Shown piece after piece: positions 7,931-38,309 of a stretch of DNA of 46,844 bases. Under the pieces are notes generated by a model. That model was not told the DNA's origin. It did no database searches and worked only from the letters and a program-made list of their open reading frames with translations. The position numbers were made by a program, and so were the translations under genes. Position 1 is the stretch's first letter, and each line of letters starts with the position of its first letter. Source of the stretch: Pigoraptor vietnamica (lineage: Eukaryota > Opisthokonta > Filasterea); contig CALSCQ010002428.1 of assembly GCA_943704525.1 (NCBI GenBank), positions 1 to 46,844 on the forward strand. Reading direction: 5' to 3'.

Positions 7931-10900
7931 AGCCTGTGAGCAAGTCGATGGGTGGACACAATGTGCGACAAACAAGGGACTCACCGCCCCGCTGTGATGG
8001 TGGCAGCAAGAAGCCGGTCGATGCTTCGCGTGGCAATGGCGTGCCGCACAAAATCGCCAAAGAAAGGCCCGCTGAGAATCGTACCGTACATGGCGCGCGC
8101 GTCGATGTCTTCATACACGCAGGCTCGCAGCTACGCGGGAAGATATCATGGTGAGCGCACGCTTTGACCTCCAACGCCAAGTTCTGTTGCACGCAGCACC
8201 TCCTCCACGCAGACAGAGCCCTGGCCGTGCGACGCGAGGGCCGCGAGGACGACCGCGTGGTTGGCCGTGTCCTTGAGGACGTTCTGCTAGAGGCAGCAGG
8301 CATTTAGAAGTGCGGTGGTCAAAGCGGAACACAGCCACTGAATATAGAGACATGGGCACAATGACAGTGTGCGAACCAGCGCCAACGGCGTACCCGGATC
8401 ATGTCCTTGGCAGCACCAAGGCCTATCACGGGATTGAGCGACGCATAAGCGGTGGCGCCGTCGACGGCGAGCGTCAGCAGTCCCTTGCTCACTAGGGCGG
8501 CGACCAGCGGACGCATGTCCACCTCGAGCACAAGAGGGCACTGGAGCGCAAAGCGAACGACGTCTGCGGCCAGCGACTCGACGTTCGCCGGCGCTGATGC
8601 GAGGGCTGCAGGGACGGAATGTCAGCGCGTGCACGGTAGCGAACGATAGCTTGCTACAGGGAGTGGCCCCACGCACCTGCCAGCGATTTCTGAAGAACGC
8701 TCGTCCAGAGTGCAGCAAGGCCGGGCACCTGGCAGACCTCTGGGAAGGCCGACAGACGACCGAGGGCGTAGCGCATGTACGACAACTGCGAAAGAGGAAG
8801 AACTGAGCGGCTGTTCCCATGCAACGGCGGGCTACGTTTATACGCAACGTAGGCAAAACGTGCGCGAGAACCCACCATCCCAAATCGCGAGAGCAGCTGG
8901 AGCAGCGCCGTCCAAAGCTGCGCGTCCCGTATGTCGGAATCAAGGCACAGGTCTGCGGCCATCCGGACGGCCACCGGATTGGACGGGTGGTTGCGCACCA
9001 GGCCCTTCGCGAGACCCTCCTTGTTCGCTGCCGAAAACTCCTCCACCGTCTGCGGCGTGTGCAGCTGTGCGAGCGTGCACACGTACTGCAGCTGCTGCAT
9101 GCGATCGCCGACCTCGTACGCGGGGCCTTTGTAAACCGCCGCCACGGTCGAAGGGTTCGCGAGAAGGAAAAGCAGCGACAGGGCACGCACACGCGCGGCG
9201 TCCGTCGTCTTGGTCGCGGGCGAGAGGAAGGCGACGTTGAGCATGTACGACACGCACTGCTCGCGCGGCTCCCTCTGGAGGAGGTACTGGATGCGGCGGA
9301 GGGCGACGCTCGCATCCGTCTCGCCCCCGTCGTGCCCATTGACTATCCACTTGTGCACAATTTCGCGCCGGATCTTGTCGGCGCTCAGTCCGTTCCGCGA
9401 CGCAATTTCGTCCACGAGGCTCAGAAGCGTGCGCTTGCCGCTGCCGCACGAGCCCTCACCCGCCGCGGCAGAGCGGCCTTCCTCCGTGCCCGTCAGGTAG
9501 AGCTTCGTCACGAGCTCCTGAGGCTTGCCGACGAGTGAGAGGTGGAGAGCGTCGTCGAGGCCGTACTCGCGCAAGGCGTGCTCCGTCGCCGTCCGCGTGC
9601 AGAGCTCCTTAAGCCGAGCAAGCGTGCGCTCCGCCTTGTCGTCCGCGCCCGTCGTTCGCTGCTCGTCGCGCCACCGCGTCGCAATTTCGACAGCCGTCTC
9701 AAAGGCCTCGATCTTCTCGCGGCCGGTCACGTGATCCGCGGCAAACTTGGCCGTGGCGATGGCGACCTCTGGGTCTGTGATCGCGACGAGCGACGGACGC
9801 GCGCTGAGAGCGAAGGGGAACCGCTCGCACGCGGGCAGCTGGGCCATGATATGGATCGCGCGCACGTGGAACTGGTCGGCGGTCATCAGGAGGGCCTTGG
9901 CGAGGGGGAGGAGTCGCGGCACAGTTGCCGGCGCAATCTCCGGGGCAAGGACGAGCCACGGGTCGCACTCGATGAGGGCGTGAAAAGGCAGCCGCGTCTG
10001 GGCGGGATCGCGCTCCAGTGGGGACAGCCGCGCGCCACGCGGCGGAGGAGTGGACCCCGATGTGGGCGAGGAGGTGGCGGGGACAAACGAGCGTTCCCAC
10101 TGCGACGGCGGTGCGCGGCGGTCGTAGAAGCGCAGGACGTCAATGAGCAGCAACCCGCGCTTGGCGACGGTCAGAGCATCCTCGCGGGCGACGAGCTTCG
10201 TCGCACACGTGAGCACAAAGCCCAGGGTATCGTAGTCGTACGGCGAAACGCGCGGAAGAATGCGGTCGAGGAGCAGCGCGGACAGGGTGTCGCGCGACAT
10301 GCGCTCGCAGGCGCCTGCTGCCCGCGCCCTGTCGGCCATGCCTGCCGGGCGGCCGTCCGCGCGCAGGAGGATGTGCTCGACAAACGCGCCCAGCGCCACG
10401 TCCTGGGACACGCCGTGCGACACGCAGTACGAGAGGGCGAGGGAGAGATCCATGTCGCCGAGACGGAGAATGTCGTGGACCAGGCGATCGTCGTCGCTGG
10501 CACTTCCCTGCAGCGTCTGTTCGTCCGCGGGAACGCCCATCTCGAGCAGCCGCTGGCGCCAGTTTGTGCGCATGCGCTGCGTCGCGTAATGCGCGGACTG
10601 CTTGGCGAATCCAAAGAACGATGAGATGTGCAAGCCGACCGTCGCGATCGACTTGCGGCGCGCCAGGCGGGACGGCGCCTGCTCGGCCGAGTGCGGTTGC
10701 GCATGGCACACCTCCAGCGCTTCCTTGACGGCGTCAAGGGAGGCCGCCGTGTCTGCGCGGGCGGTCGCGAGGCCCACAGCGAACCCCTCGTCAATGGCCT
10801 TCGCGCTGAGCACCTTGCGCGACAGGGATAGCAGGAGATCGTCGACGAGCTGCGCAGATGCCTTCCCGATCTGCCCGAGCGCCCCCAACAGCGCACCGCC

Positions 10901-13900
10901 GTCGTACGTGACGGCAAGGTGTCGCGAGCACGCCGCAATGCCATGAGAGGCGAGGCGAAGCCCCACGTGCGAGTGGCGGTTGTCGCAAGCAAGCTTGATG
11001 CACTCCCTGCCCGCCGCCACCAGGGGCGCCATGATGGACTTGTGCGGCTGGCTTCCGCCGTCCGAGGCCCCGCTGCGGCCCACGGTCGCGCGACACGCGT
11101 ACGGGCGGAGGGATCCCTCGCAAAAGCCGTCTGGAAAGCAGGCCAAAGCGTACTTGGCGGCAAGCGAAACGGCCGCGCGCCCCTGCATAACGAGGCCGTC
11201 CTCAGAGTAGTGCGACTCCGAGAGCCATGCGCCCACGTCGTCCGCAGGTGTCTGCACGGGCCTTGAAGCGGCATCCGCAGCCGACGGGGTGGACTCTTCG
11301 GTCGTCGCCAGCCAATCGGGGACAGTAGAGAGTCCGGGAAGCGCGTCGATCGCGCCGTCCGCTGCGTTGCTTTCGGCAACTTCGCAGTTCTCGATCAGGG
11401 TCGCGGCGACATCAAGCGAACGGAAGAGCTCGAGCGTGTCACACAAGTCGCCCGCAGGGCACTCTGCGAGGCTCCTCATGAGTGTCGTGCGCAGCCGTTC
11501 GCACGCAACAGGCCCAAGCACCGAGTCGCCGCGCGCGACGGATTCGAGGAGGGCGTGGACTACGTGCTGCGACTGCACATAAGCATGGGTCTCGGTCCCG
11601 TGCCCGCCGTCATCCTGGGCCGGCGCAACAATGCCCATGACGCCGTCTGTCTCGCCCGCCCGCGCGAGCTCCTCCGCCAGAATGAGCTGCAGAGACTGGC
11701 GAGGGACGAGAAGCAGGTCGCCGACGCGGAACAGGCGGCTGCGCTCTGTGGCCCGCTTGCGCGACGGCTTCCGCAGAGGATCCGCAGGCTCGGGCGCCGC
11801 TGAGTCGCTGGCGTTGGCGGCGTGCCAGAGCCCCGCACTCACGAATTCGCAGACGTAGCGCGCAGCGAGGCCCAGGCGTGAGCTCTCGTGCGCATACTCG
11901 GAGGGATTCACCACCTCGCCGTACTCGCGTTGGAGGGACGCGATGTTCAGCAGACGGCGCGCCACGTCGCTGGGGGAAGACGCGCCAGCTATTTCCATTT
12001 CCCCGAGGCAGCCAGCGATGCCTCGCTCCGCTGCCAAAAAGTTAAACAGGGCGACGCCGGCGTCAAGGTGGCGCAGGCGTTCCGCTCCGTCGCTCTCCAG
12101 TTGGACCTCGGTCGAGATACAGTCGACGAGCCACTCGATGACCTCGGACAGCGCCAGTGCCGCAAGATCGCGGGGAAGGCGCGTCCGAACGTGCTCGATC
12201 GCCGACGCGGCACTCACGACGAACAGGTCCTGAATGCGTGCCACGTGCGCCTCCAGTTCGGTAAGGTGGTTGTACGCCCCCACGACCCTCAGCGCGTCGT
12301 CGAACGCTTCCGGGACGTCAGTGCGCGAGACTAGTCGGCGCATGAGCCCGCGGGCCTGCGATACGTCGGACATGTTGACGTCGCGTGAAATGCCGTGGCG
12401 TGCCAGCGAGCGACGCAGCTCCAGCAGGCGGAACTGTTCGGCGATTTCCTCGCGTCGGGAATGGTCCGTCCACGCCAGCGCCGAGCGCATGACGGCGTCG
12501 ACGGCGTCGCTCCAAGGAACGGCCGTGTGACGCATCAGCTCGATCACCGCCTCCGCGCGCAGTTCCACGTCGGCCATGCAGCCAATCGCTGCGATAATCC
12601 AGGCCTCGCGCGGGGAATCGCGCTGTGCGGACGGCGCCGCGCCCTCGAGGAAAGCGCCGCCGATCGCTTCCGCGACGTAGTGCAGCAGCGCCTTGTCCAC
12701 GGGAAAGTTGTGGCGCTGCAGGTACGGCCGCACGACGCCATCGACGGTGCTTGGCACGAGTTCTGCGGCCGCGACGCGATCGAGGAGGGCGTATGCGATC
12801 GTCGCGGGCGTCTCGGCAGCGTAGTCGGCGAGGGAGAGGCGGATGCCGTGGTTGGCCATCAAGTAGGCGATGTCTTCCAGCTGCCGGCGGAGGTGTGCGA
12901 GGGACGAACTCTCGTTCAAGCGGCAGAAGGACATGTAACGCATGGCGACTTGTCCCGGGGTCGCGTCCAGCGGACCGTCGCCGAGCACTGGAGGAGCCGT
13001 CTTGGCAACGAGCGCGATCACGTCGAGGGCGTTCTGTGGCCAACACTGCGGTTCGACGACCTCGAGAACCCGAGCGCGCTTCTCCACCCACGACAGTAGG
13101 AAGGCGGCGTCTTCCTCCGACGACAGCCGGCCGACGACTTCGCCGGCGAGCCACTCGACGTACGCAGACGAGGGGAGGCAATCCTCTGCGATGGAAGCGA
13201 TGACGGCGCGGACACGCGTGGACAGCGACTCTTCGGCACCGTGGCGGCACCAGATCGCGCGCGCAGCATGAAGGCGTCCCGACGCGAGGCAAGCACACAG
13301 TTGCTGCAGCATGTTTCCGGCGCGAAAGTCCTGCCAGTGGCGCCCGTCAAAGCGGCCGTCAAATGCAACGGCGTACGTGCCCAGGCGACGCAGCGCGGCA
13401 AAGAGCGACGGAAGCCGCTCGGCGTGGGCAGGGGACGCCGTGCACAGGGCACGCGCGTGGTCAATCAGCTTGCGCGTGTCCTCGACTGTGGGTAGCGCCG
13501 CTTCCACGCAGAAATCGACGACGTACGCCTCGTCCGACACCAGCTTCAGCACGTCGATCAGCGATGCGGCTGTGGCGCCGGGAGCCGCTCCGACCGTGGC
13601 AGCGTCCAGCATCGCGGTGAGCTGGACCTGGTACACGAGCTCAATGTCGAGCCCAAAGTTCTTCGCGAATGCCTTGGCCTCGTCGAATCGCCTCTTGTGG
13701 AGTAGGCGGTAAAAGCGGCTCGTCGGCAGCGATTCGCGGAGGAGTCGCAGCGCAATGTGGGCAGCGCGTCCGTCTCCGCCGTCTCGGAACTCGGCCACGT
13801 GCGTCTGGTCTGTGCTGCCGAGCGCCGTCGACAGCACGGCAAAGCGGCCGACGCCGCACGCGTACGCGATGCTCAGCGAGTCCAGGTTGCGCACCTCCAG

Positions 13901-15198
13901 CAGCATGCGAGCGGAACCCTCGCCTCCCTTCGCGGGGTTCGCGTTTTGCGCCTCTTTCAGCGCGATCAGCCTCGTGGGCCGGCGCGAGAGCAGCGACTCG
14001 GCGCGCTCGAATGCGAGATCGTCCGACTCGCCATTCGAACCCGAATCGGCGCTGTTGGCTTCGGGGACGAGGAAGGCGGCGTCGGCGTACGCGCCGTGCA
14101 CGAGGGCGACAGTGAGAAGAGTGTGGGGATCCAGAAGGGCGAGAGAGCCCGACGCAAGGACCGCCACGTGCCGCCCGTCCGCAGATGCACGCACGCGGCG
14201 AATGCCACCGCGCCACGCGGGCTGAGCCACACTCGCGATGGGGGTGACGCGCTCGCCACCGCACGACCACGTCGCAATGCCGGAAGGGCCTGTGGGTGGG
14301 GTGAAAACATTAACAGCGGCCCATTAGTGCACATATAGGAGGAACGCAACCGGAAAACTGGCTAAAAAGGCATATTGCGATGCGTTAACTCACCACGGCC
14401 GGCAGTGCAGAGGGCGGGCACGAGCGGCGCAGGACCACAGCCGCCAGCGATGAAGCAGGCGTCGGCGACGCCTTCGGGGTGTGTGGCGGCCACGGAAAAC
14501 CGCTCCATGCGAATTGCGGCCTTCACTGCTTTGGCCGCCGCAAAGTCCCCGGCGGCAATGGCACGCTGCAGTGCGTGCAGATCGACGTTCGAGAAGCGAA
14601 AGGCGTTTCCGCACGCGGCGACGACGATGAGCTCGTGCGTGGACTCCGCGTCCGTGGACGAATCGTCTGCAGCTGCGGGAGCACACGGCCTGAAGACGAG
14701 CGCGGCGAACGTGCGCCCGTCATGCGCGGGCCCTTCCGTTGGAAGGAGCTCCTGCGAAAACAGGATGGAGCGTGACGGCACGTGGAGAAAGTGGAGGCTT
14801 CCGAGGCGGTCCGCCACCACAAGAAACGTGCATCCGGCGCTCCACGCAACCGCATCCGGCGGGCAATCAAGCGAAATGGTCGTCTCCAGGCGCATGCACG
14901 CGCCATCGAGGACGTGGATCTGTGTTTCGACGACAAGGCACACGCCGTCCGGCGCCGTCGCCGCAAAAAACTGCGGAACAACAGGGGCACTTGGGCTCGC
15001 ATCCTCTGCATTGCAGGGCCCGTCGGACACGGTTGCAAGCAACTCGGCGGTGTACAACGACGTGGCGTAGTCGCCGGCGGGGTCGGCTGCGTTGGCGGCG
15101 GGGACGCGCACGGTTGCGTCGTCGTCGTTGGAGAGCGATGCCGCAGTCTCCACCACAGCCCACCGCGCGGGGGCGTCGAGCGGGTCGGCCGCCGCCAT
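7582..15198 (-). CDS. KNTC1: Kinetochore-associated protein ROD (KNTC1), RZZ complex subunit
   Basis: Exons (minus): 14394-15198, 8876-14289, 8677-8785, 8394-8605, 8169-8283, 7985-8123 (alternative acceptor at 8130), 7754-7868, 7582-7650. They total 2325 aa in an intact frame; human ROD is about 2.2 kb of codons, so this is full length. The N-terminus resembles the ROD beta-propeller (FLVVADRLGSLHFLHVPSR). The alpha-solenoid shows the diagnostic FYRLLHKRRFDEAKAFAKNF at about residue 458, then SEDGLVMQ, SPYDYDTLGFVL, QTRLPFHALIECDPW, ALRRIQYLL and KEGLAKGLVRNHPSNPVAVR, all in the order found in animal ROD. In the family, ROD joins ZW10 and Zwilch at unattached kinetochores and recruits dynein/Spindly and Mad1-Mad2 for the spindle checkpoint. 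One 5.4-kb exon carries most of the protein and five introns cluster at the 3' end. It is head-to-head with the thioesterase gene. Identification is firm; the 3' splice choices are less so. Confidence 0.93.
7870..7925. repeat. (CA)n microsatellite at a ROD intron acceptor
   Basis: About 27 CA/AC dinucleotides on the plus strand. In the ROD transcript this is a (UG)n run ending directly at the proposed 3' splice site TGTGTAG before the exon 7754-7868, taking the place of a normal polypyrimidine tract. Confidence 0.95.
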
Positions 15199-15422
15199 GT
15201 TCAATGGGGACAGGCTGTGCCGCAGCGGCGCGTGAGAAAGAGAGCGGTAATGGCGATGGCAGGCTGGGTGGATTCGGAGCGCGACTTTTCAGCAAAGTGA
15301 AGTCGACACAATTCAAATTACGCGCCAAATTTTGTTACCGCGATCTCGGCACTGTGGCCACCTAGAACTGTGAAAAAGCGCTTGAGATCGACCAGCTGCA
15401 ATCGCCTGCCTTTTTGGCGAGA
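15199..15422. promoter_or_regulatory. Bidirectional promoter of ROD and thioesterase, with an E2F-like site
   Basis: Only 224 bp separate the two start codons. GCGCCAAA at 15322-15329 (TTTGGCGC on the minus strand) matches the E2F/DP consensus TTTSSCGC, about 125 bp upstream of the ROD ATG. No clear TATA box was seen. E2F control of a mitotic checkpoint gene would be in keeping with the family's biology but is an inference. Confidence 0.5.
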
Positions 15423-17209
15423 ATGGCGCTCACGGCGGCCTTTGCGGTCGCGTCGTTGCTGAAGCCATACTGGAAGCCATGCACGCCGCCGGCCGCTGCA
15501 CAACCCGCCGTCCGCGTCAGGGACACTGGCGTGGTATGTGTCGCGATCTGATGTTAAAAAAACGCCCTCGGCTTTGATCGCCTAAAACTGCCGCGTGTTG
15601 TTTCTGCGCGCACGCAAGCTGACTTGCGTCTTGTGTCGACGCCTACATCGTCGAAATGTGGCAGGTCATGACAGAGATCGTGCTGCCCTCGCACGCGGAC
15701 ACGCGCGGCGTCTGCTTTGGCGGCCAGATCCTCGCATGGATCGACATTTGCGCCGGCATCACCGCCAAGCGCCTCGCCCGCAGGCCCTGTGTCACCGCGA
15801 GCGTCGACGACGTGTGCTTTCTTCAGCCTGCGCTCGCTGGCGAGGTCGTCATCCTGCGCGCCATGGTCAACCGGTCGTTCCGGACGAGCATGGAAATTGG
15901 TGTGCGAGTCGAGTCTGAGAGCCTCAAGACGGGCGAGAGGAAGTACTGCTGCGCGGCGTACCTCACTTTCGTGTGCATCGATGCGGATGGGCGACCGCAG
16001 AGCGTGCCGCAAGTGACGCCGGAGTCGGAGAGCGAGATTGCGCGCTACGAAAGGGCCGAGAAGAAGCGCACGGAACGCCTCTCGCATAAGACCGCGTCGC
16101 TCGGCGTGCTCACGCTTGACGTTGCGGGGGGTATGATGCCACCCGCGCACGTGACTCCCTCGGGCCAGGCCACGCGCTATGCGTCCGAAACAGTCGCGCA
16201 CATGACCGAGGTGGTCTTGCCGTCGCAGGCCAACACCATCGGCAGTGGGTGTCGTTTGTCTGCGGTCCTGTGTGTGCATGGCAGCGCACTGAAAAGGACA
16301 CGTGGGACGGATGTGTCTTGAATGTCTGCGTGGCTTTTCGTGCGTTTGCCGTTCGCACCTAGACACGCACGGCTGCTGAGTGTCGCGGATTCACTTCGGT
16401 CGCATGTGTTGATGTCCTTGTCCGCGCAGTCACTTTCGGAGGGCAGATTATGGCGTGGATGGAGCAGGCGGCGTTCATTTCGGCCAGCCGCCTCGTGCAC
16501 GGCTCCAAAATGCTCACGGCGGCCGTCGATAGCCTTCACTTTCTCGCGCCGACGCGCGTTGGCGACATTGTGTATTTCGTTGCACAGGTGCGCTTTTGCG
16601 TTTAGCTGCCGAGTGGAGGGCATGTAGTTTGCGTGTCTGTGATAGGCAGCGGCGCCAATCCGGTTCAGTATGGACTGTGCCGCTTGTTGCTCACGGCCCT
16701 TGGTCTCTATGCAGGTCACGTGCACGTTTTCCAGCAGTATGGAGGTTGCCGTGTCCGTCTACGTGGAGAATACGCGGGATGGCCGCTTGACGCATTGCAA
16801 CAACGCGTGCCTGTGAGTTTTGTGTGGTGTCGTCGGCTGAAATGCAATTTGCCGGCCGTGAGCTGAAGGCCTTGTCGACCGTTGGGTACTGCGGCATGTC
16901 TCTGTCATTTTCTGCGTCACATCTGATGATATGGGTCTATTTTATTTGCAGTACTATTGTCGCCGTGGACGATTTTGGGAGGCCCGTAAAGGCTCCACAG
17001 GTGAGTTCTTGTGTGTGCGTGTTTGTTGGAACTCTGGTAGGACAGAATCTTCGCTGTCAGTGGCAGTAATGGCCGCGTCCGCTCGACTCTAGCTCGTCTG
17101 CGAATCGGCAGACGAAATGCGGCGTCAAGCGGACGCTTCCAGGCGGAGGGACGCGCGCCTCGTTACAAGGCAGCGCCTCACCCGCGTTGGCAACGTGGCA
17201 CACACATGA
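15423..17209 (+). CDS. Acyl-CoA thioesterase, tandem hotdog domains (ACOT11/12-like)
   Basis: Six exons (15423-15533, 15665-16244, 16430-16587, 16715-16812, 16952-17000, 17093-17209) give 370 aa in frame. Hotdog 1 spans about residues 38-155 (MTEIVLPSHADTRG, FGGQILAWID, CVTASVDD, NRSFRTSMEIGV); hotdog 2 about 215-331 (MTEVVLPSQANTIG, TFGGQIMAWME, FSSSMEVAVSVYVEN). The family hydrolyses acyl-CoA to free acid and CoA; ACOT12 prefers acetyl-CoA. In double-hotdog enzymes one Asn and one Asp from opposite domains form the active site. Here hotdog 1 keeps WID but has HAD instead of HAN, while hotdog 2 keeps QAN and has WME, so a composite Asn(2)/Asp(1) site is still possible. The C-terminal START domain of animal ACOT11/12 is absent; the tail is short and Arg-rich. 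The first 37 residues (MALTAAFAVASLLKPYWKP) could be a targeting or membrane segment. Confidence 0.9.
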
Positions 17210-21171: not shown

Positions 21172-22906
21172 TCACTCTATCACATCATCGTCCGCGTCTT
21201 CCTCGCCGCCGACCACCTCGTCCTCCCGCGACACAGGCACATCATCTTCGCGCGTCAAGGCGTCGTCGCACGCGGCAAGCATGTTGCGCACGTTCTTGGA
21301 GCCAAGATCGAGAAGCAGTCGACGCGAGGCGGCCGCGAGGTCACGCAGGGTCTCGACGCCCATGGGGCTGAGAAGCGCCGAGCGGATTTTCTCAGCGGAC
21401 CCCGGCGTGAGAAGGTACTTGCGCAGTTCCTCAAGGTCCACGTCGTCCTCCGTCCCCTGTGGCATGAACGGACACCACTCGTCGTCGACGGCCGCAGTTT
21501 GCGAGGGAATCTCGACATCGGGAACGACGGGCGCGTCATCGTGATCACTCGTCAGGGCCGACGGGAAGCCTTGGGCATCTGCTGTCCACTTGCAATCGAG
21601 GATGCGGGGGTTGACGTAAAGTTGCCCGTGCGAGACAATGAAATCGGGCGTCACGGTGAAGCGCGCCGTCGAACCCGCCGGCTGGACCGACGCTATCGTC
21701 GCGCCGAACAGCTCGGCCCCAGCGGTCTTCTCGGGGGTCACCGCCTCAACGTCTCCGTCGCCACCGGCAGAAGAGTCCTCCGCCCAGTCGTCGTTCCACG
21801 AGCCGTGTGCTTCCGTGCCGTCGGTCGTCGCGGTCTCGTCGCTTCCGCCGATGAACCCGGAATCGTTCATCTCGCAGTCGAATACGTCGACGTCGACGTC
21901 GCCACCAGCGACATCTTGCATGCTAACTCCGTCGTCGTCCGTGTCCCACGCGATGCGTCCCCAGTTGATCCCCGGAGATTCGCTAGAAGTGGCCATGCGG
22001 CAGCCATCCATCGGGACAACCTGCTCGGTCGCCGGGGCGTCCTGGCTCTCCGCCGGAGTCGATCCGTCCATGTCGTTATCGGCATCACGCGGGGGCGTGG
22101 GCGACGAATCGCGCGAGCAGTTGGGCACCGTCGGAATGCTGGGCACCATCGGGGCCTCTGTGATGTCGTCGCCGAAATGTTCCTCAGGGGGAGTCCTCAC
22201 GAAGGTCATGGGCGGCAGGCTGAGGAAACGCGGCCTTGTCTTGACGAGGGGCGGGAGGACGAAGCGAATGCCCACGTTTCCGTCGACCACCGCGGACGTC
22301 ACTGCGGCATTGCGCAGGCGCATGGGAGGTGCCCACGGCCCGTCGTCGTCCGTGGCGACATCGTCGTCCGTCGCGACATCTTCGTCCCTCGTCGGCACAG
22401 TCTGAGCCTCGCAAGAAGTGGCTGCGCCGCGCCGCGCCGACTTGCGCGTGCACTTGCGGGAGCGTTCCGCCTTTCCTCGCGCAGTCTTCACGGGCGGTTG
22501 GTAGTCGCCGTCGGCGGTAGCAGTCACAACCTCCTTGGCGGCGTGGTACCCAAACGGCGGCGCCCTGGCCTGCACTTTGTAGAGCGCGCCGAGCTCCTCG
22601 CGTGTGAACTCGCTGGACAAGTCCTTGAAGCAGCGCGACGGAGCACCCGGGTGGACAGTTGTGGCGTGCTTCAGAAAGAGAGACTTTTCACTGCGTAGAG
22701 TCGATGAGTGTGGTTGTTAGTGGGCTTCGTGCTGAGCATTGGGCCACACAACCACTTGCGCAACTGGTGTACGCATAGATGTGAGATACTGCAATGGCGC
22801 CTATTGCGCAAAAAACAGGAATAGAGCCCCACCGGTATATGTACCCGTCGGGACGGCACGGGCACGTCCATTTGCAGAAGGGGCGCTTCAGCACCTTCTT
22901 TGGCAT
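21172..22906 (-). CDS. Acidic protein with N-terminal split zinc-finger-like motif
   Basis: Two exons (minus): 22833-22906 (ATG at 22906; an in-frame ATG at 22978 would add 24 residues) and 21172-22690, joined by a GTGGGG...CGCAG intron in phase 2, giving 530 aa. The junction assembles FCKWTCPCRPDGYIY with REKSLFLKHATTVHPG, a Cys/Cys...His/His arrangement like a C2H2 finger, with the intron inside it. The rest is Asp/Glu-rich and low in structure, with basic blocks after residue 70 and an acidic tail ending DADDDVIE. A helical block near the C-terminus (VDLEELRKYLLTPGSAEKI, then VETLRDLAAASRRLLLDLGS) is the only other ordered-looking part. Acidic regions plus a finger suggest a nuclear or transcriptional role; no family was recognised. 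Confidence 0.65.
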
Positions 22907-22978
22907 CGCGGATGCGGAGGCGATCGCTGCGCGTTTTGACGCGGGACGGACGTTAATAGAGCACCACAGCGAGTACAT

Positions 22979-23498
22979 TTCAACAACGAAGCACAGCTTA
23001 ACAGCGAGTGACGTTATTGGTGAAGACGGAATGCGCCAAGTGTGTTAACATGAGCAGTGGAAGATGCGCGACATCCACCAGACAAAAGTGCACGGCACCG
23101 CCCAAACGCACGAACAGCAGTACCAAAGACGTCAAGCGCGCAACAAAAGCCCACCTTTTCCCACGGAAGACGGAGTGTCGAAGCGTTCCCACAGGGGTCG
23201 TGCGACTGTAACAAGTGGATGCAAGTGGATGCGCAATCGCGACTATGAAGAGGGGCGGAGGGACTCCGTGGACGAGCGTGGCGTTGTGCGTTGTGCGATA
23301 CAAGTGCAGGAGATGGAACGAAAGGCGCGGAAATAGGGACGGAGAGTGCGCTGATGTGATCCACTCGCAGTGCTGATGTCGTGTGCAAAGTGGAGTAGGA
23401 GTACTGGACCAACTTTCAAATAAGGCGCCAAATCACACATTTCCCGCCAACAGATCACGTGACAAGGGACGGACAGACCGTTTCAGCAACCTCCCGTT
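22979..23498. other. Intergenic, upstream of zinc-finger gene and downstream of SMP-RhoGEF gene
   Basis: 520 bp with no supported gene. It includes a tandem AAGTGGATGC pair at about 23212-23232 and an E2F-like GCGCCAAA at about 23424. Short frames here lack any recognisable motif. Confidence 0.4.
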
Positions 23499-26400
23499 TC
23501 ACTTTGCCCACAACTCGACCACGCTGCGGTACATGTCGTGCGCAGACGCCGCACCGGAGAAGCTCTCAAACACGTGCACCGTGCCGTTCACTTCCGTCAG
23601 CCGCACGCTCGAGGCCACCTCCTCGACATTCTGGAGGTCGTCGATCGACAGCTTGATCTGTTGGATACGCTCACTCAGGCACTCATACAAAAGGAGGGAA
23701 TCAAAGCAACAGAGGGATCGCACACAATGCCCTCAACTTAACCTTAGCACTGAAACGAAAGAAAACGCAGCGCACCTTGAGCGTCTTCTTGAAGAGGCTC
23801 TTCGACTTGAAGCACAGCAGTCGATCGCAAATGTACAGCGTTCCGAGCCCAAAACCGCTCTTGGCAAGGATGCACAAAAACACTGCGCACACGCCGTCAA
23901 CCAGCACAGACGAAATCGTCAGCAACTCGGTCGCGATGAGCCGCACAGAGGGATGCACGCGGGGCACACACCGTGAGAGAAAGTTTCCTTGGCGTTGAAG
24001 TTGAACGTCTTGCGGAATTTCCTCTGGTCGTTCGCGTTCTCCGCAACCGGCGCGACAGGACCAAACACGTGCGGACTTGTAATGTGCGGCGTGTGCGGCA
24101 TAGTAGGGGAGGACGAGCCGTTCGCCAGCAGATCCGAAGGAGGCAACACGCGCATGTTGCGGTCGAGCGCGTCCGAGATGTCCTTCTGACGCTTCGAGAG
24201 CTCCAAGATCTCCTCGCGAAGGAACGACGGCTCTGGTCCCGAACTCACTTTCCGCTGCTCAACGAGAGACACGAACACGAGTACGAGCATGTGAGCAAAA
24301 CCGCACATATTTGCAACACACAGAACACTTCTCGGCGCTAAATTGAGGCATAAGCGCATTGAATTGGAAGCAAGCCACTCAACACACCTTCGGCTCCTTT
24401 GAGAGCTTCCCGCTTTCCAACTCCTTCAGTTTGGAGCGCCGGTCGCGCAGTGCCGCATTGAGCACGCGAAGTTCGGACATCAGCGCCTGGTGCTCGTTGC
24501 GAATGGCCTGACTCTTCCGCTGCTCGCGCGTCTTCTTCGTCCCCGACATCACTGCGCAGCACGCGGCCATCAGCGGATGCACGGATGCGCACAAGCGAAA
24601 CACGGCGCTCGCAGGATGCTCACCGTCGTGAACTGTCTGCACGACACTGTGAGGGTTCGTGACCGCGCGCCGCCTCGACTGCGCAACCGCCTGTCCCGCT
24701 TGCGGATCGAGCGAGAGCGTCTTCATCAGCTTGGACGTCCGCCGCTCACTCGTTTGGCCGTCCCCGACGGACATCTCCGACGACTGCCGCTCCATTTCGA
24801 CCTGCGTGCACGAACATAAATTGGTGAGGTGGGACGAGGTCGCACTGTGGTAATGCAGACTTTGTAATACGACAGCGCAGGTCATAAGACTGCAGCAAAG
24901 CCGTGCGTGGTGAGACGCGATGAAACAACTGTCAACATGCGATGAAACAACTGTCAACATGTACCCACCGTGCCCATGAACGCCTTGGCGGTCGAGACAA
25001 TCAGACCGACGACCTTGTGCTTCACGGCTCCGTTCTCGGCGCGGAGGACGACGTGCACATCATCGCACGTGAGGGCAAACGCGCTCGGTATCTCTGCAAA
25101 GAAACAACATACGCGTTCGAGGTCTATACTTAGCGCCACGGGAGGCAGCGATCGTCGGTGTCCAAACACAACAGGCCATCTAACGTCCCAAAACCCACCC
25201 TTTCCGTCCGGGCCGATAATGTTGCCATTGACAACGGTCTCGTCCAGGAAGAATGGCTGCGACAGTGCTTTGGGTAAGGGACATACGCGAGAGATGCAGG
25301 CAAGAGAGGACAAGGCGAAGTCGGAACAGAGGCAAGGACAGCTGCATTCGGTGACAGAAGGCGCAGTGTGCGCAGATGCAAAGCCCGCACGCACCATCCT
25401 GAACAGCTGCTCTTCTCCGTCGTCGTTGGTGATGAGCAGCACGGCGTTGTCCAGCAGCACAATCTCAAGCTACGGGAAGCGCACAATTGACGTCAGCACG
25501 ACACACATCATACTGGGCGGCGTATGGGCAACATCAGTTATTAAAGCGGTCTCGTTCACGACGCACACCTGCTTGCCGGACTCCACGCGCACTTGGCCCT
25601 GATACACCACCGAACGCTCCTCCTTGTCCAGTTCAAGCACCTCCGCCTGCACAGTACACAGCAGGCGATTGCATTGAGGTAACGCACGCGCGTTTTTGCA
25701 ATGAGATGACGCATCAACATCAAACATCAACAGTGTCATTTCGACAAATACGCAAACTCAAACGTACCTCGTCGGAGCTCAGCGAGAGGGACTCTCGGAG
25801 CTGCTTTAAGCGGGCAGAGCCAGCTTGTTGCTGCGCATCGGAAAAAACGCGATCAGCGCATGAGGAATTTTCGCGAACAACACATAAGCGCATGTATGCG
25901 CGCACCCACCCCCTCCACCGACGCCCGTGACCGCAGCACCGACTCCATTTCACCGACGCGCGAGAGTGCATCCGCGAGGTGGACGTAGTCCGGGTCTTCG
26001 GGCACGGTCATCATGAGCACGCGCCGCAGCAGTGACGAATAATCCGACACTCGCCGCTCGGGCATCGCCGTGTGGTCCACGAGTGAGAACGACGAGTTCA
26101 TCGACGCCGTGAGGTTCACCCGGCTCCCGTTCTGCGACGACAGCGCCGCCCACAACCCCGGTTTCAACAGCGATGTGCTCGACGACGGCGTGAGAGACTT
26201 TTGCCCAGGCGTGGACGAATCCTCGGGAACGTCGGGCACACCAAGGCCAAGCGCGCGGAGCTCTGCACGGAGCGCCGAATCGCTGCGCACGCGGGAGGCG
26301 TACTCCGATTGGCACCGCGCGCGGCCGCCGCAATACTCCGCAAGGACGTCGAAGAAGCCGAGCTTGCCCGTCGTGAAGGCCTCGCCGATGCGCACGGAGC

Positions 26401-28477
26401 CCCACGTCGCCTGGCGCCCCTTCGTCTCGCGCACGAACGTCAGCATGGCGCGCGTCGCGCGTGCGACTTCCTCAAAGTTGCCGAGGATGGCTGCGGCGTC
26501 CGCTGGCCTGCGCTGACGCAACGGCGCGCAGTATTCTTTGACGACGCGCTCCAAATCGGCGACATACTTCTCTTCCGTCTCGAGGAACCCGTCGATGGCC
26601 TCGTGCCGGCGCACCTTCATGCTGAGCTCCGTCTGGCCCGCGTAGTCGCCGCTCTTGACGACCACCATGTTGAAGCCGTCCGCTTCGTCGGTCTCGGCGA
26701 CCTCCACGATCGAGTTGTTTCCCGAGAGAACCGAGTTAGACGAGGACTGGCGCACCATCGAGGACAGCGCCGGCATGCTGCGCGAGGTCGGGACCCCGGT
26801 CGCCGTCGAAGCAGCGTTCGCGCCCGTCTCCCGCTCAACAAACATGACTTCAACAGTGACAAGGCCGCAGCTCTCCTCACCGCCCGTGCGCGGCACCAGC
26901 GGGATCGTCTCGCGAAAGTGGACGCCCGGCACAAGGCTCTTCAGGTTGAGCACAGCGGCGCCAATGTAGTCGTCGCGGCCGAGCTTGTCCCAGTCAAAGA
27001 CGGTCAGGCGCATCGACCACGGCCCGCGCTGCCCAATCTCGAAATCGAACGACTCGTTCCACACGGGATCGAGCGTCTTGACGATGTGCCGCGTGCGGTA
27101 CTGCTGCCACCCAATCGTCACGATGCAGTATGGGTCGCTCGTGCCGCCGACGTCCTTGCTCGCGACGCCAGACGCGCTGACAATCTTGACGTTCAGCCGA
27201 CCGCCCTCCGTGTAGCCGGCCGTGACGGGCCCCCGGCTCGTCGGCTGGGCGCGGTCGCCGCAATCGACGCCGACAGGGCACCGCACCTCGGACGCCAGCA
27301 ACCGCCCCATGCACCGCTTGTGGCACACGTACGAGCAGTCGCGACAGTAGTAACCGAGCTTGTGGATGAGCAGCGAGCAGCGAATACAGCGCACGCCCTT
27401 CGGAAAATCGTACGCGATCCAACTGTGGGCCTCGCGAAATGCCACGGCCCCTTGACCCGGCGCCGAGACGGCGTCCGCGAGACGAATCGCCGACCGATCG
27501 GTGAAGCGCGTCCTGTCCGCAGTGACCGTCATGCCCCCCTCCTCGGGATTGTGGCAGACGTTGTACGACACGACGTTCGGGAGCGTGTAGCGGTTCGCGA
27601 TGACGCCGCGCACGGCGCCGTCGATGACACGCGCCAGCGACGTGACCTCCTTTCCGCCCAGCAGCGCGCACATGTCCATGTTCATCCGGGGCTCGTCGAG
27701 GAAGGCCACGCTGTACTGCGCAATGTTCTCCGACGAGAGGCGCACGAGCAGCTTGCCCGTGATCTGCGCGATCGAAACCGACAGGACGCCCACGAGCCCG
27801 AGTATCGTCTCGATCTCGATTTTGAAGTGAATGCTGCCCTGATACACGAGGTCGGCCACTATGTCGCCATGGTACCACAGACCGTGGCGCTTTTCCGCGG
27901 GCGGTGGCGATGCAGATCCCGCGACGCTGCGGCGCCCGTTTCCTTTCGCCCCGCGCGCGTCGTCATCCTCGACGACGATGCTCGGAACGACCGCAAACCC
28001 GTTCGATGTATTCGCATCGGCGCGCGACTTGGTCACCTCGGTGTCGCCGGAGAGGAACTTGACCGACGTCACGACAGGAACGCCGTTGCCAATGCCATAC
28101 TCCTTCAGGACGATCGTCTTGAGCGATTTGCCGACGAGCGACTCCTTCAACTCGTCAAACGCGCTCGTGAGGGACTCCTCGATCGCGAGGCGAAACGGCG
28201 CCGCGCGAAAGTCCGAGAAGAGGTTGGCGAGGATGGCATTGAACCACACGCAGCTCTCCGCCTTGGCGCTGCCTTCGAGGGCGAGTATTTCCTTGTGCTC
28301 GGCAGCGGACAGGCGATGGAAGGCCTCCTTGCGACGCTCGAGCAGCTCTTTCGACACGAGCGTCTCACGTGACGGCGCGTAGAAGCGGTACCACCACACG
28401 ACAAGGTACAGCTGCGCCGCAATCACAAGCAGGCCGCCGAGCACGACGCCCAGGAAGACATACAAGAACACGTGCAT
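23499..28477 (-). CDS. TM-SMP-C1-C2-RhoGEF(DH-PH)-GRAM protein, PDZD8-like lipid-transfer/GEF fusion
   Basis: Eleven exons (minus): 25910-28477, 25768-25830, 25569-25646, 25395-25469, 25199-25256, 24969-25093, 24624-24801, 24388-24551, 23972-24254, 23776-23882, 23499-23669. All phases agree, giving 1289 aa. Residues 3-30 are an N-terminal membrane anchor (FLYVFLGVVLGGLLVIAAQL). About 70-305 is an SMP lipid-transfer domain of PDZD8 type (ESCVWFNAILANLF, VPVVTSVKFL, NRYTLPNVVSYNV). About 351-402 is a C1 zinc domain (H-x12-C-x2-C, later C-x2-C-x4-H-x2-C). About 425-520 is C2 with DVGGTSDPYC and FDWDKLGRDD, the Asp set for Ca2+. About 623-846 is a DH (RhoGEF) domain with an insert, about 870-985 PH, 1050-1100 a charged helix, and 1183-1289 a GRAM domain. 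SMP domains move lipids at contact sites, DH-PH activates Rho GTPases, and GRAM and C1 read membrane lipids. Domain calls are by eye; the 5' half being one exon makes the fusion solid. Confidence 0.9.
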
Positions 28478-32274: not shown

Positions 32275-34700
32275 ATGCTACGAACAGCGGCCTCGCGGGT
32301 GCCAGTGGCACTTTTCACTGCGAAACAATTCGTCGGTTTGCGAGCGCTTGCCACTGCAGCGGCACACGCCGTGCGCACGGTGCGTCGGTCATCGGCTTTG
32401 TGTTGAAGTTGCGTCCCATCTTTCTTCGTAGCGATATTGTCCATGCGTTCTTCGTCGCGCCATTTTGTGCCTTTCTGTTGATGTCTTCACATTTCCGAAA
32501 GCCGTCCAAACGTTTCGCGTCACTCATGATACGTATTGTCCGCACAGAAGCCACGCACCTCAGAGAGTCGTGGTCGCGATGTTCCGCCCCGCGGCCCTGC
32601 AAGTCGTGGGCGGGACGTTGCTTCTCGCGGCGCGGACAGCCGCGGACGGGATTCTCCACCGCGTCGCGCTGTGAGCCGCGAACGTGACGTTGCTTCTCGC
32701 CGGTCAGAGAGTCGTCGCGAGGGCCCACCTCGTCGCCTCGAGACTCGTGGACGGGACGCACCGCGAACGGCGGAGAGTCTGGGGCTTGGTGTTCGCGCCA
32801 AAGATACGCATGCGCCGTCACGTCTTCGCGCCAGCGCCGCCTCTCCGTGGCCTGCACGTGCGCGGCAAAGGGTGTCTGACGACGGAGAGGGCGAAGGGTT
32901 CGTTGCGCAGCCCCGCCACGCGCCCCGTGTCGAGTTGACGGAGAGGGAAGTGGAGCAGCTGAAGAAGATGATCGTGTACCAGGACTCGCAAATACTCGTG
33001 CTGAACAAGCCGCACGGACTGCTCGTGCAAGGTGTGTGTGTGTGGGGGGTGGGGAGGAAGGGGAGGAGGGGGGATGGCAGTTTTACTGTGCTGTGGCAGT
33101 TGTCCGCCTTTTCTGTGTGCTACTACCAATACTACGAGCCTCTTTTGGACACGTGTGAGGCCGTGTGACTTGCCTATGGACGCTGAGGGGCAAGGGGTGC
33201 GAGAGCTTGTTGTGGAGCTCGTGGCATCGATTGGTCTCAGTGTCCTGGTTTGTTTGCTGACGATCCCTTATGTGCTCACGCATGCGTCTGATCGCTTCGT
33301 TCTCAGGCCAGTCCAAAGAAACGACGAAATCGCTCGACGGCATGCTGCACGCGCTGCAGTTCAACGCAAAGGAGCCCCCGCGCATCGTCCATCGGCTCGA
33401 CAGGTGCGCGACTTGCCTCTTGCCGTGTCAGGAGTCGCACGCGACCGTTATACGGAAGTACAGACGCAAGTTGTGTTTCCTTCCATGAGAGCGCTGTCTT
33501 CGCGCGAACGCCCTCACTGGTGTTAGCAACTGTCCATCGCGTTCTTGACCACACCAACAAAGTTCTCGCGCGTGACCCATCCCAGGGACACGAGCGGCGT
33601 GCTTGTGCTCGCGCGCACTTTGGAGGCCGCGCAGATTCTTTCCCGCCACTTTAAGAAGGGGAAGCTCACCAAGTCGTACGTCGGCATCACCATGGGCGCG
33701 CCGTCGCCGTCCTCCGGGACGATATCCATCCCGATCGAAGTGACCCAGCACAAGTTCGTGCGCGCTTTTGCGGCATTGCTCTCATCTCTTCGGCGCCTTG
33801 ACAGCGTCGATTGGGATCAGCCTATGACTGCCTGTTAAACCGATGTCTATTGAGGGCTTTGTCGTTAGATGCACGTGCTCTCACCGACGCTTCCTTTCCC
33901 ACTTGACCCCTTTCCGTTCAGGTCCATTTTGCGCCCCGAGCTCACGTGCGTCAGCTCGCCCGTCTACCACCAACTAAAGGGCCGCGCGCAAAACGCAACA
34001 ACGGACTTTGAGACGATTGTCGAGAACGAGCTTGCCGCGCTGGTGCGGTTCTTCCCGCGCACGGGCCGCAAGCACCAAATTCGCGTCCACGCCGCCGACC
34101 AGCTCCGCACGCCGCTTGTCGGGGATTTCAAGTACGGCGACGGCTGCAACGTGAAGGTGCGTTTTGGTTTCACTGGCTGGATGCGTGCGCACAAACTAGT
34201 GCTGCGTCCTCATACGTGACTGCATGACTGCGCACGCACTGCGGCGCCCGTTGGAGGCACTCCATCATTGTCAAGAGGCATGACACTCGGCAGCGAGCCT
34301 TGGCTGATCTTGTGCCCACTTCTGCGCCACTGTGTAACGGAGTGACAAAACGGCCAATGCCTGCCATTTCTATCGCAGTTGAAGAATGCGCTTGGAGTGT
34401 CCGAGTGGGAAATTCCCGCGCTTCGCCTTTTCCTCCACGCGCACGAGATCACCCTCCCCTCCATTTGCAGCGCATCGCCACGAAAGGCCGAGACTTTCAC
34501 GTGGGTAGCGAGAATGGGTGTTGCGTGCGCGTGTGTGTTTATGTGTGTGTTTGTGTGTGTGTGCGTCTGCGTGTGTACAGAATAGGTCGGTGCGTCGCTA
34601 ACACGAGTTGTGTGCGATCCGCGCACGCAGCGTCAAGGCGCCTATCCCTCGCCGCTTCCGCGCCATGATGGTGGCCCTTGGTCTCGACGCGCCCATCTAG
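32275..34700 (+). CDS. Mitochondrial RluA-family pseudouridine synthase (RPUSD4-like)
   Basis: Seven exons: 32275-32379, 32548-33031, 33307-33403, 33586-33753, 33922-34156, 34379-34500, 34631-34700, totalling 426 aa in frame. The first exon (MLRTAASRVPVALFTAKQF) is a textbook mitochondrial presequence: Arg, Ala and Ser rich with no acidic residue. Residues 36-130 are a degenerate Arg-Gly-Asp/Ser repeat. The synthase domain begins ILVLNKPHGLLVQ, then RIVHRLDR/DTSGVLVLART, split by an intron; the Asp of HRLD is the catalytic residue of RluA enzymes. Further blocks are KSYVGITMG, FPRTGRKHQIRVHAA and PLVGDFKYG, the expected order, and a final LFLHAHEITLP. Such enzymes isomerise uridine in mitochondrial rRNA, tRNA or mRNA. 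Which RPUSD paralogue is closest cannot be settled by eye. The donor after 33753 (GTTCGT) is weak but phase-correct. Confidence 0.9.
32565..32775 (+). repeat. Degenerate coding repeat (SRGRDV-type) in the pseudouridine synthase
   Basis: About eight diverged units of 7-12 residues around the theme S-R-G-R-D (ESRGRDVP, ASRGRDVA, DSRGRDSP, VSRERDVA, TRGRDAPR). The DNA shows the same GAGAGTCGTGG-like periodicity. It makes a basic, flexible linker between the presequence and the enzyme. Confidence 0.75.
34521..34578. repeat. TG-rich tract in pseudouridine synthase intron
   Basis: Interrupted TG repeat on the sense (plus) strand inside intron 34501-34630, starting about 20 bases after the donor. 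Confidence 0.9.
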
Positions 34701-35734: not shown

Positions 35735-37606
35735 ATGTTTCGGCGCGGCACCGGCTCTTCGACGTCCTCCCCCAACGCCCACGTCCTTGCGGACGAACTC
35801 CGCGAGGCGATTCATATGAGTGACGACGAGTCGCACTCGGACCGGCGGCACGCGCACGCCAACAACGACGACCTCTCGAGCGGGGATGCGATTGCATACG
35901 CAATTACGGGGCTGGCCGTGAGCACTTCCGCGATGAAGGAGTCGCCGCGGGCGATTGAGCGCCGAAACCTGCTCTGCGTGCTGCAGCATGCCGTGCGGCA
36001 CCTCTTGGATGGCTCGGTGGGCCGCGTCATTGACGACAGCGACGATCGCCTGTCGCGCTTTAGTGCGATTCTCGAGGCCACGTTGGACCACGGCATACGC
36101 AGTGAGTGGGATCGCACTTGGAGAGGGTGTCGACTCGTGTGTGGTGAAGGACTTTGCTTCATATTATGTCGGGACTGAGAAGAAAGTATGTCGGTGACGG
36201 CGACAGATACTGTGGGGATGGGCCGTTGGTCGCGTGGTGTGTCGTTGTTCGTTGGCGTTGACCGTTGGGCCACTTGCGCAGGCGGCAAGAAGAAGTGGCT
36301 TGCGGCGGACAAAGGGGGTTATTACGGCTTCTTCGAGCCCGTGCTACGACACGCGCGCAGCCCCATAGCAGGTGCATTTCGCCGTTTGCCCACACCGCGC
36401 TCTCTTTGTGCGTTGTTGTGAAAGTGCTGCGTCGTCTCGCTCTGTCTGCACTCCTCGATATGCTTACAGTTCACGCCGTCCCCGCAGAGAGCGTGCGAGA
36501 GATGAGCGACGTCAAGACGGCGCGTGGAAAGGGACGCGCGTTCATCCGCCACGCGCTGATGGAAAAGCGCCTCGCGCAGTATGTGCAAGCGGCCATCGCC
36601 GAGGCACAGCTTCTCAGGTGAATGGGTGTTGTCAAAGCAGCGTTTGCGAGTGTACGTGGATGAGACTCACATGGCATGGATTTCACCGCCCCTTTATCTT
36701 GCTGACATGTCTGTGGCGCCTCCAGCGACTGGTACGAGGACTGGGCGGTTATGCGGAACGAGCAGTCGCAGGTGCTTGTGGGCGTGCTCGTCGGCCTCAA
36801 CGCGATCGACTTTGGCTTCTGTCTGCGCGGTGTGGACCTCGACAGCCCGGAGATGCCCATCGACTACGCCTTCTTCCTCGAGGCCACGCGGAGGCGCATG
36901 CAGGTCAAGACGCCGTGGGTGTCTGCCGATGATATGTGGAGTCCTGGACGCATTGGGTCCTCCCATGCACACGCGCGCATCCTCTCTAGGCGCACGTTTG
37001 CCAGCCACTCGTAGGATTCGTGCACTTGCATAACTTGTTGCTTAGGGAATGCTTCACGCGCAGGGATGCGTCGGACGATCGTGCGGCAGACGAGGGAAAG
37101 CGACACGCGCATTCGCAGCAGTCCGAGTGCGAGACGTGCGATTCCGAAGTTGCGCGACGAATTACGGCGCTGCACGAACAGAAGGCCTACCTCGAAGAGC
37201 TCGTGCGGACAAAGGAAATGGCACTCGAGGTGCGTGTGCGTCGCCAAGTTTCTCTGGTCATGGTGCTGTTTGCGCGTGCCATCGCTTGCGCATCCGTATC
37301 ATTCTCAAAGCACACTGACGTGCGGCCTGTTGGCCTGTTTCTTCTTCGTAGAACGAGAGCCGCGCGCACGCTGCGTCCCTGAGGGAACTCGCACACGCGA
37401 CTGCGCGCGTCAACGCCCTCGCCCAGCAGCTGGCGGACGAGCGACACGAGTCGCACGAGATCATCATTGAGCTGCAGCGGCAGATGGGCGTCAACGCAGA
37501 CGCGCGGCGGCTAAGCAGTTCGGGGAGCACGGCGTCTTCGGGGTCGTACGGCGACAGGACGCGCCACACGTTTGCCAAGCTGCCCGACTCGGTGCTTGGG
37601 CTGTAG
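35735..37606 (+). CDS. RUN domain and coiled-coil protein, RUFY-like without FYVE
   Basis: Exons: 35735-36101, 36282-36371, 36488-36617, 36726-36903, then 37119-37229 (phase-correct acceptor; 37046 has a better acceptor but the wrong phase) and 37352-37606, about 376 aa. Residues about 75-255 match the RUN domain of RUFY1-3: ERRNLLCVLQHAVRHLLDGS, GYYGFFEPVL, TARGKGRAFIRHALMEKRLA, QVLVGVLVGLNAIDFGFCLR and DLDSPEMPIDYAFFLE. A coiled coil follows (ITALHEQKAYLEELVRTKEM, then ALAQQLADERHESHEIIIEL), as in RUFY proteins. RUFY proteins link endosomes and lysosomes to small GTPases (Rab/Arl8) and motors. The C-terminal FYVE finger of RUFY1/2 is absent; the protein stops at DSVLGL, so membrane binding would need another route. 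It is convergent with the C2H2 gene. Confidence 0.85.
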
Positions 37607-37747: not shown

Positions 37748-38309
37748 TCACACACACACATCCATCGCCAAGGGGAAGAGTTGGTCCACCTCGAAGGACA
37801 GCGCGCCAATCATCTCCGCGCTCCCCAGCGCCGTGTGCGCGGCCATCGTCGAATACGCGGGCTCCCCCTCGTCGAGCACGAGGTCGTCCACAGGCGCCGT
37901 CCGCTCAGAGAAGTCCTCAAAGAACCCCTCATCCGGGTCGCTGGCGTCGTCGACCGCTCGGCATCTGCCCTTATAATAATGTCGGCAGAGCTGCGGCAGC
38001 TGTTTGAAGTCTCGTTTGCACATTGGGCACTTGAGTCCCACCGGCTTATGTCTCTGGTAGTGCTTGCAGTACGCCGATTGGTCGCTGAGCACTTCGAAGC
38101 AGGCGGGGCACTGCCTCTTTTTGGGATCCCCAGCCACTCTGTGGGCCTTCGGATACGTCTTCCTCTCGCGCCGCCCTGTTGTTGGCACGAAAGAGAATAT
38201 ATGTTTAGAGTATAGTCCGTGACTCAGATTTCATCGCACACACCAATACCGTTCGCATACCTAGCGGAGGAACTGGAGGTGTCGCTTGCCTCTTTCCGGT
38301 GTGCTTCAT
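37748..38309 (-). CDS. Small C2H2 zinc-finger protein
   Basis: Two exons (minus): 38261-38309 (MKHTGKRQATPPVPP) and 37748-38175, phase 1, 158 aa. Finger 1 is CPACFEVLSDQSAYCKHYQRH, exact C-x2-C-x12-H-x3-H. Finger 2 is CPMC then twelve residues, H, five residues and C, a CCHC variant. A basic stretch precedes the fingers and an acidic tail follows (DPDEGFFEDFSE), ending in hydrophobic residues. Likely a DNA- or RNA-binding regulator; target unknown. The last codons (GATGTGTGTGTGTGA) read MDVCV then stop, running into a GT repeat, so the C-terminus could vary between strains. Confidence 0.8.

Follow-up and report, generated by a model that had tools for sequence, protein, structure and literature searches.

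A filasterean gene joining a membrane-anchored SMP domain to a RhoGEF domain in a single exon

Domains of the SMP kind act as lipid carriers at contact sites. Can such a lipid carrier and an activator of Rho-type GTPases be built into the same polypeptide? This question is raised by a gene on the minus strand of a 46,844-bp contig of Pigoraptor vietnamica (CALSCQ010002428.1; positions 1 to 46,844, hereafter the window), which runs from an ATG at 28477 to a stop codon at 23499. A first-pass annotation had read it as one polypeptide with a PDZD8-type SMP domain, C1, C2, DH-PH and GRAM. Here we describe its gene model, its domains and its paralogs in the same genome, and we weigh what the protein might do.

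A single exon encodes the SMP and DH domains

The first exon is free of stop codons from the ATG at 28477 down to 25856 and contains the following features.

25910..28477, minus strand: exon 1, encoding the transmembrane (TM) anchor, SMP, C1, C2, a linker and DH; a single uninterrupted reading frame of 856 amino acids (aa)
28388..28471, minus strand: N-terminal TM anchor, aa 3-30; hydropathy peak, aligned with the same segment of two paralogs
27563..28267, minus strand: SMP domain (lipid transfer, predicted TULIP type), about aa 71-305; Pfam MMM1, profile match to Mmm1 5yk6, hhalign
27278..27427, minus strand: C1 domain, aa 351-400; Pfam C1_1, with all eight zinc ligands and a short middle loop
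26906..27202, minus strand: C2 domain, aa 426-524; Pfam C2
25952..26587, minus strand: DH (RhoGEF) domain, aa 631-842; Pfam RhoGEF, hhalign to DH domains of the genome, with a Ser-rich insert

Among the three frames of the minus strand, this frame was the only positive one in all 16 sliding windows of 60 codons, including those of the C2-DH linker, in a test whose codon table was trained partly on exon 1 itself. The SMP, C1, C2 and DH domains are joined in this exon without splicing, in agreement with the first-pass annotation, which had placed everything from TM through DH in one uninterrupted exon. A 761-aa antisense open reading frame (ORF) on the plus strand, 26087-28372, was rejected: its in-register frame was negative in 15 of the 16 sliding windows and scored below the sense frame in all of them.

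The SMP domain and its paralogs

The strongest hydropathy peak of the protein (2.69 over aa 3-21) lies in the N-terminal anchor, and a low-complexity insertion interrupts the SMP domain near aa 140-200. The N-terminal 382-aa fragment scored 22.2 bits with Pfam MMM1 (cut-off 21.9).

A protein search of the genome, a draft assembly of 32.5 Mb in 1395 contigs, revealed two further loci encoding a TM segment and an SMP-like domain, on contigs C238 and C62. The C238 paralog matched the window protein at E 5.7e-7 and 1.1e-6, and the C62 paralog at E 0.0096 and 0.6 in the TM-SMP part and at 1.1e-24 in C2. With MMM1, their N-terminal proteins scored 29.5 bits (C62) and 23.0 bits (C238), above the cut-off, and shorter pieces of the two gave 27.8 and 24.8 bits. 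An alignment of the window protein with both paralogs extends from the initial Met across the SMP domain, at 25-27% identity to the window protein.

A profile of these three sequences matched one PDB sequence, the Mmm1 SMP domain 5yk6, at E 2.8e-7 for the whole chain and 7e-6 for the best stretch (profile positions 68-247 of 255). The two paralogs alone likewise matched only Mmm1 (E 8.8e-5). Aligned to the window protein by hhalign, they gave 98.9% with E 2.9e-17. The real SMP sequence scored 83.4 bits, as compared to 10.8 for the best of 500 shuffles that spared the first 30 aa, and the window sequence without its TM segment scored 75.7 bits against the paralog profile. These results establish the SMP domain by sequence, with a TULIP fold as the prediction.

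The order of domains is TM-SMP-C2-linker-C1-stop in the C62 paralog (C2 80.9 bits, C1 63.9 bits). In the C238 paralog, it is TM-SMP-C1-coiled coil-stop, with a C2-like segment recognised by eye between SMP and C1, no Pfam C2, and a C1_1 score of 25.8 bits, slightly below the cut-off of 26.5. Since Pfam MMM1 and the Mmm1 structure were the best SMP matches, and the paralogs have a TM-SMP-C2-C1 order, the SMP domain, judging from the Pfam and PDB profiles, seems to be of the Mmm1/PDZD8 kind. The PDZD8-type SMP of the first-pass annotation is supported to this extent, by comparison with Mmm1.

A genome search with the MMM1 family listed four loci, namely the window, C62, C238 and C934. The last, at 1471-1602, shows the C-terminal part of an SMP domain only and adjoins a run of N; judged by eye, it may be of the TEX2/Nvj2 kind, which is a guess. 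The gene adjoining the C62 paralog looks, by eye, like a farnesyl diphosphate synthase. The terminal coiled coil of the C238 paralog (L018, about 2769-3374) has a weak likeness to TOCA-type HR1 (21.0 bits; cut-off 27). The HR1 fold binds Rho-family GTPases, and this coiled coil is a second possible link between SMP and Rho in the genome.

The C1 and C2 domains

The C1 domain lies directly after the SMP domain and before C2. It scored 32.5 bits with Pfam C1_1, and 31.8 bits in a 1306-aa version of the gene model. Its ligands are spaced H-X12-C-X2-C-X10-C-X2-C-X4-H-X2-C-X10-C. Typical diacylglycerol (DAG)-binding C1 domains have a C-X13/14-C middle loop; this loop is X13 in the C62 paralog and X10 in the window protein. 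Because the loop is shorter than typical, DAG binding by the window C1 is unlikely by motif, and the DAG sensing that had been proposed for the protein was not borne out. The C2 domain scored 81.0 bits (cut-off 22; 1306-aa model), and the acidic residues of its loops, KDVGGTSDPY and FDWDKLGRDD, appear by eye to be of the Ca2+-binding type.

The DH domain and its altered CR3

The DH domain scored 46.8 bits with Pfam RhoGEF, and 45.7 bits in the 1306-aa model (cut-off 27.6), so that C1, C2 and RhoGEF all pass their Pfam cut-offs. In hhalign, it aligned to three DH domains of the genome at 97.1, and the real sequence scored 51.2 bits, as compared to 5.1 for the best of 500 shuffles. Its best PDB matches were a putative Rho/Rac GEF, intersectin and Vav (E 7.7e-4 to 0.0077), with 8zlf, which we take to be an Entamoeba protein, at the top. 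By profile, the domain belongs to the Dbl-family RhoGEFs.

The TE of conserved region 1 (CR1) is retained. On the other hand, the core of conserved region 3 (CR3), P-x-Q-R-x-x-[K/R]-Y, reads PERRVSDY, with R in place of Gln and D in place of the basic residue. For comparison, we surveyed 26 further DH loci in this genome (3 + 20 + 3), in 24 of which CR3 was readable; C22 and C1252 show other parts of the domain only. In the largest batch, 18 of the 20 loci matched a regular expression that left the two positions free and required R/K and Tyr nearby, and the CR3 of C378, C945 and C798 was read by hand, across an intron in C378 and C798. The third place is Gln in all readable domains but one (23/24, the exception being C1369), and K or R precedes the aromatic residue in every one (24/24), the aromatic being Phe rather than Tyr in C945. 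In the Tiam1 DH domain, an Asn of the last helix bonds Arg66 of Rac1 (excerpt of PMC7884829). The window position that we read as its equivalent aligns to Arg. Given the altered CR3 core and the Arg at the Asn position, catalysis by the DH domain is in doubt. The Rho activation suggested by the first-pass annotation is weakened by the CR3 core.

One explanation is that the DH domain is non-catalytic and serves as a helical bundle that docks to a GTPase or is bound to a membrane. Its CR3 is changed, yet its similarity to the family is kept. In addition, the coiled coil of PDZD8 binds two GTP-Rab7 molecules (excerpt of PMC8458453), making GTPase docking an established use in this kind of protein, and the DH domain might by analogy be employed in the same way, as might the weakly HR1-like coiled coil that ends the C238 paralog. 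Some active DH domains may, however, tolerate changes in CR3, and we regard the docking explanation as plausible at somewhat less than even odds.

Alternatively, the DH domain may be an active exchange factor, with the Ca2+ or lipid state of the contact site freeing DH-PH to load a Rho GTPase with GTP. The above-cut-off DH match with its retained TE, the C2 domain that looks Ca2+-competent, and a genome in which Rho signalling appears prominent, with RhoGEF matches on 25 other contigs, are all consistent with this possibility, but the two unusual CR3 residues and the Arg in the last helix speak against it, and we hold it only tentatively. Because of the altered CR3, docking without strong catalysis seems about as likely as active exchange. 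In total, at least 45 RhoGEF matches (E <=0.01) were spread over 26 contigs of the genome, with that of the window among them; some are exons of one gene, and the set is large for a 32.5-Mb genome.

The C-terminal half of the gene model

After exon 1, the GT-AG introns were picked by inspection. In the preferred model, ten short introns separate 11 exons that encode 1285 aa. Other choices for intron 1 and for a 72-bp intron within exon 7 give 1282 or 1306 aa, and the 1289-aa spliced model of the first-pass annotation is close to all of these. For intron 1, the donor GTGGGT at 25909 is preferred, and GTGGAG at 25918 is likewise in frame. The features of this half are as follows.

24799..25646, minus strand: possible PH domain, about aa 878-990, exons 3-7; PH_13 below cut-off
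24552..24623, minus strand: probable 72-bp in-frame intron, GTGAGC...GCGCAG; its retention would encode an out-of-place hydrophobic stretch
24165..24546, minus strand: charged segment, probably a helix, in exons 8-9; judged by eye on the spliced sequence
23505..24017, minus strand: GRAM domain, exons 9-11; Pfam GRAM, PDB match to Lam6
23499..23501, minus strand: stop codon of the spliced model

A straight read-through of exon 7 was considered less likely; the 72-bp GT-AG intron takes out the odd hydrophobic stretch. A PH domain directly after DH is only suggested. The GRAM domain scored 31.5 bits in the 1306-aa model and 37.9 bits alone (cut-off 23.6), and its top PDB match was the GRAM domain of Lam6, 5yqr (query 4-108 of 108, E 0.047), a lipid-binding protein with a membrane anchor.

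Beyond exon 1, the joins depend on splice sites chosen by eye, which would allow for two adjacent genes or transcripts, one encoding TM-SMP-C1-C2-DH and the other the PH, helical and GRAM segments. However, the intervals between successive coding segments, from exon 1 through GRAM, measure just 72-167 bp and leave little room for a second gene, GT-AG is present at every chosen border, and the GRAM profile aligns over almost its whole length (1-107 of 112) across two splice junctions. Two genes are therefore improbable, and would leave the SMP-DH fusion intact. We infer a single transcript through GRAM. An assembly artefact fusing two genes, conceivable in a draft of so many contigs, is more improbable still, given the in-frame coding signal across the joins within one exon, the lack of N in the stretch read, and a 601-base probe that matches the assembly once.

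Origin of the fusion

C238 and C62 are absent among the contigs of the genome's 45 RhoGEF matches, and both paralogs read to a stop codon without a DH domain. This absence is the firmer because the same search did list the window's DH and because the paralogs were read to their stop codons. The absence of GRAM from the paralogs is weak, since the genome-wide GRAM search missed the window's own spliced GRAM. SMP and C1 thus appear common to the window gene and both paralogs, and C2 to at least one of them. With TM-SMP-C2-C1 paralogs that lack DH, it is DH-PH, and probably GRAM, that look added in the window gene. The first-pass annotation had envisaged C2-DH-PH-GRAM in place of the PDZ domain of PDZD8. 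This was not upheld for C2, which need not have arrived with DH-PH-GRAM, because the C62 paralog combines SMP with C2 and C1 and lacks a DH. According to an excerpt of the work of Wideman and co-workers, PDZD8 is a paralog of Mmm1, and two more SMP paralogs without names exist, one of which occurs in unicellular relatives of animals (PMC6069729).

Proposed function

We propose that the gene encodes a contact-site lipid-transfer protein anchored in the endoplasmic reticulum (ER), of the PDZD8/Mmm1-like SMP kind, which has gained DH-PH and probably GRAM (probability roughly 0.6). The N-terminal helix would anchor the protein in the ER, and the SMP domain would ferry glycerolipids to the facing membrane, which C2 (with Ca2+), the atypical C1 and GRAM would reach. 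The ligand of this C1 may be an anionic lipid or a protein rather than DAG. DH-PH would bind a Rho-type GTPase, either cortical or on the partner membrane, bringing lipid delivery and Rho/actin signalling to the same spot. ER location, lipid transfer, Ca2+ response and GTPase binding are extrapolated here from domain content. In excerpts of the PDZD8 literature, the C1 domain binds phosphatidylserine and phosphatidylinositol 4-phosphate (PMC7486383), and the protein tethers the ER to late endosomes through its TM segment, C1 and the GTP-Rab7-binding coiled coil (PMC7486383, PMC8458453).

Several observations weigh against this proposal. Profile support is clear for DH and GRAM, both above the Pfam cut-off, but the SMP domain, which passes as a fragment, reaches only 18.4 bits with MMM1 on the whole 1306-aa model (cut-off 21.9). 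As a single-sequence PDB query, the window SMP retrieved no SMP domain and one unrelated match (E 1.3). The PH half of the predicted DH-PH was not established: PH_13 scored 15.4 bits (E 0.017; cut-off 27; 1306-aa model), and a PDB search with the segment returned no PH match and two unrelated ones. The CR3 core departs from that of the other DH domains, and the C-terminal half depends on the chosen splice sites. Finally, a scan that covered viral contigs only gave no orthologue outside the species, none of its 9 pattern matches being confirmed.

The stronger proposition, that one ER-anchored protein is at once an SMP lipid mover and an exchanger of Rho-type GTPases, coupled through Ca2+ or lipid sensing by C2 and GRAM, appears rather unlikely from the sequence.

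Other genes in the window

Elsewhere in the window, Pfam matches were found as follows.

729-1274, minus strand: gene piece with RasGEF_N (Pfam)
3318-3881, minus strand: cyclic-nucleotide-binding match below cut-off (Pfam)
15623-16318, plus strand: 4HBT thioesterase (Pfam)

A gene for the kinetochore protein KNTC1/Rod occupies 8657-15288 on the minus strand, with KNTC1_N in one frame (14365-15288) and a 1889-aa ORF carrying three KNTC1 ARM domains and Rod_C. The remaining pieces, at 33527-34216 (plus), 36706-37011 (plus) and 37751-38230 (minus), comprise two pseudouridine synthase stretches, a piece of a RUN domain and a C2H2 finger slightly below cut-off. The ORFs 41623-43611 (minus), 21175-22716 (minus) and 5416-7224 (plus) are coding by frame score. 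At E 0.01, the first two had no Pfam match, nor had 22794-23045 (plus; 84 aa, ATG start), and the third had one weak leucine-zipper match only. An Rfam search of the window gave no matches.

Comparison with known proteins

PDZD8 has the order TM-SMP-PDZ-C1-coiled coil (excerpts of PMC8458453 and PMC7486383). The window protein shares its N-terminal TM-SMP, its C1 and a helical segment further on, but has a typical C2, the added DH, a possible PH and GRAM; this likeness is one of architecture. No PDZ domain was found among Pfam families at E <=5 in the 1306-aa model, a search in which the HMMER filters remove the majority of matches with E above about 0.1. Caenorhabditis elegans TMEM-24, by its description, has a membrane anchor, SMP, C2 and C1 in common with the window protein, and the excerpt names no DH or GRAM for it (PMC8523718). 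The extended synaptotagmins share the anchor, SMP and Ca2+-type C2, whereas the window protein has one C2 only, with C1, DH and GRAM in addition; the SMP profile search of the PDB retrieved Mmm1 and no extended-synaptotagmin SMP.

The GRAMD1/Lam proteins of contact sites share GRAM, as in the Lam6 match; they have a StART-like domain where the window protein has SMP, and the anchor of the latter is N-terminal. Kalirin, a RhoGEF with a Sec14 domain, likewise combines a lipid-binding domain and a RhoGEF in one protein, but with a Sec14 fold and spectrin-like repeats instead of a TM-anchored SMP shuttle (excerpt of PMC9823006). An Entamoeba DH-FYVE RhoGEF, known here from a title cited in PMC6156432, joins a protist RhoGEF to a lipid-binding module and has no SMP; by an excerpt of the same paper, E. 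histolytica is without SMP proteins.

The joining of a lipid module to a Rho regulator (Sec14 in Kalirin) and the recognition of a GTPase by an SMP protein (PDZD8 and Rab7) are thus already known. The pairing of an SMP shuttle with a DH domain in one chain was not met in the open-access full texts of PMC searched for it and more widely, leaving uncontradicted the first-pass statement that no such protein has been described, although unannotated relatives may exist. If the DH domain is active, the coupling of lipid transfer at contact sites to Rho/actin signalling would become testable in one molecule, and exchange by such an SMP-RhoGEF would constitute a direct physical link from contact-site lipid flow to actin control. 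If the DH domain is only a dock, the protein would illustrate how a GEF fold can be turned, in nature, into an address reader.

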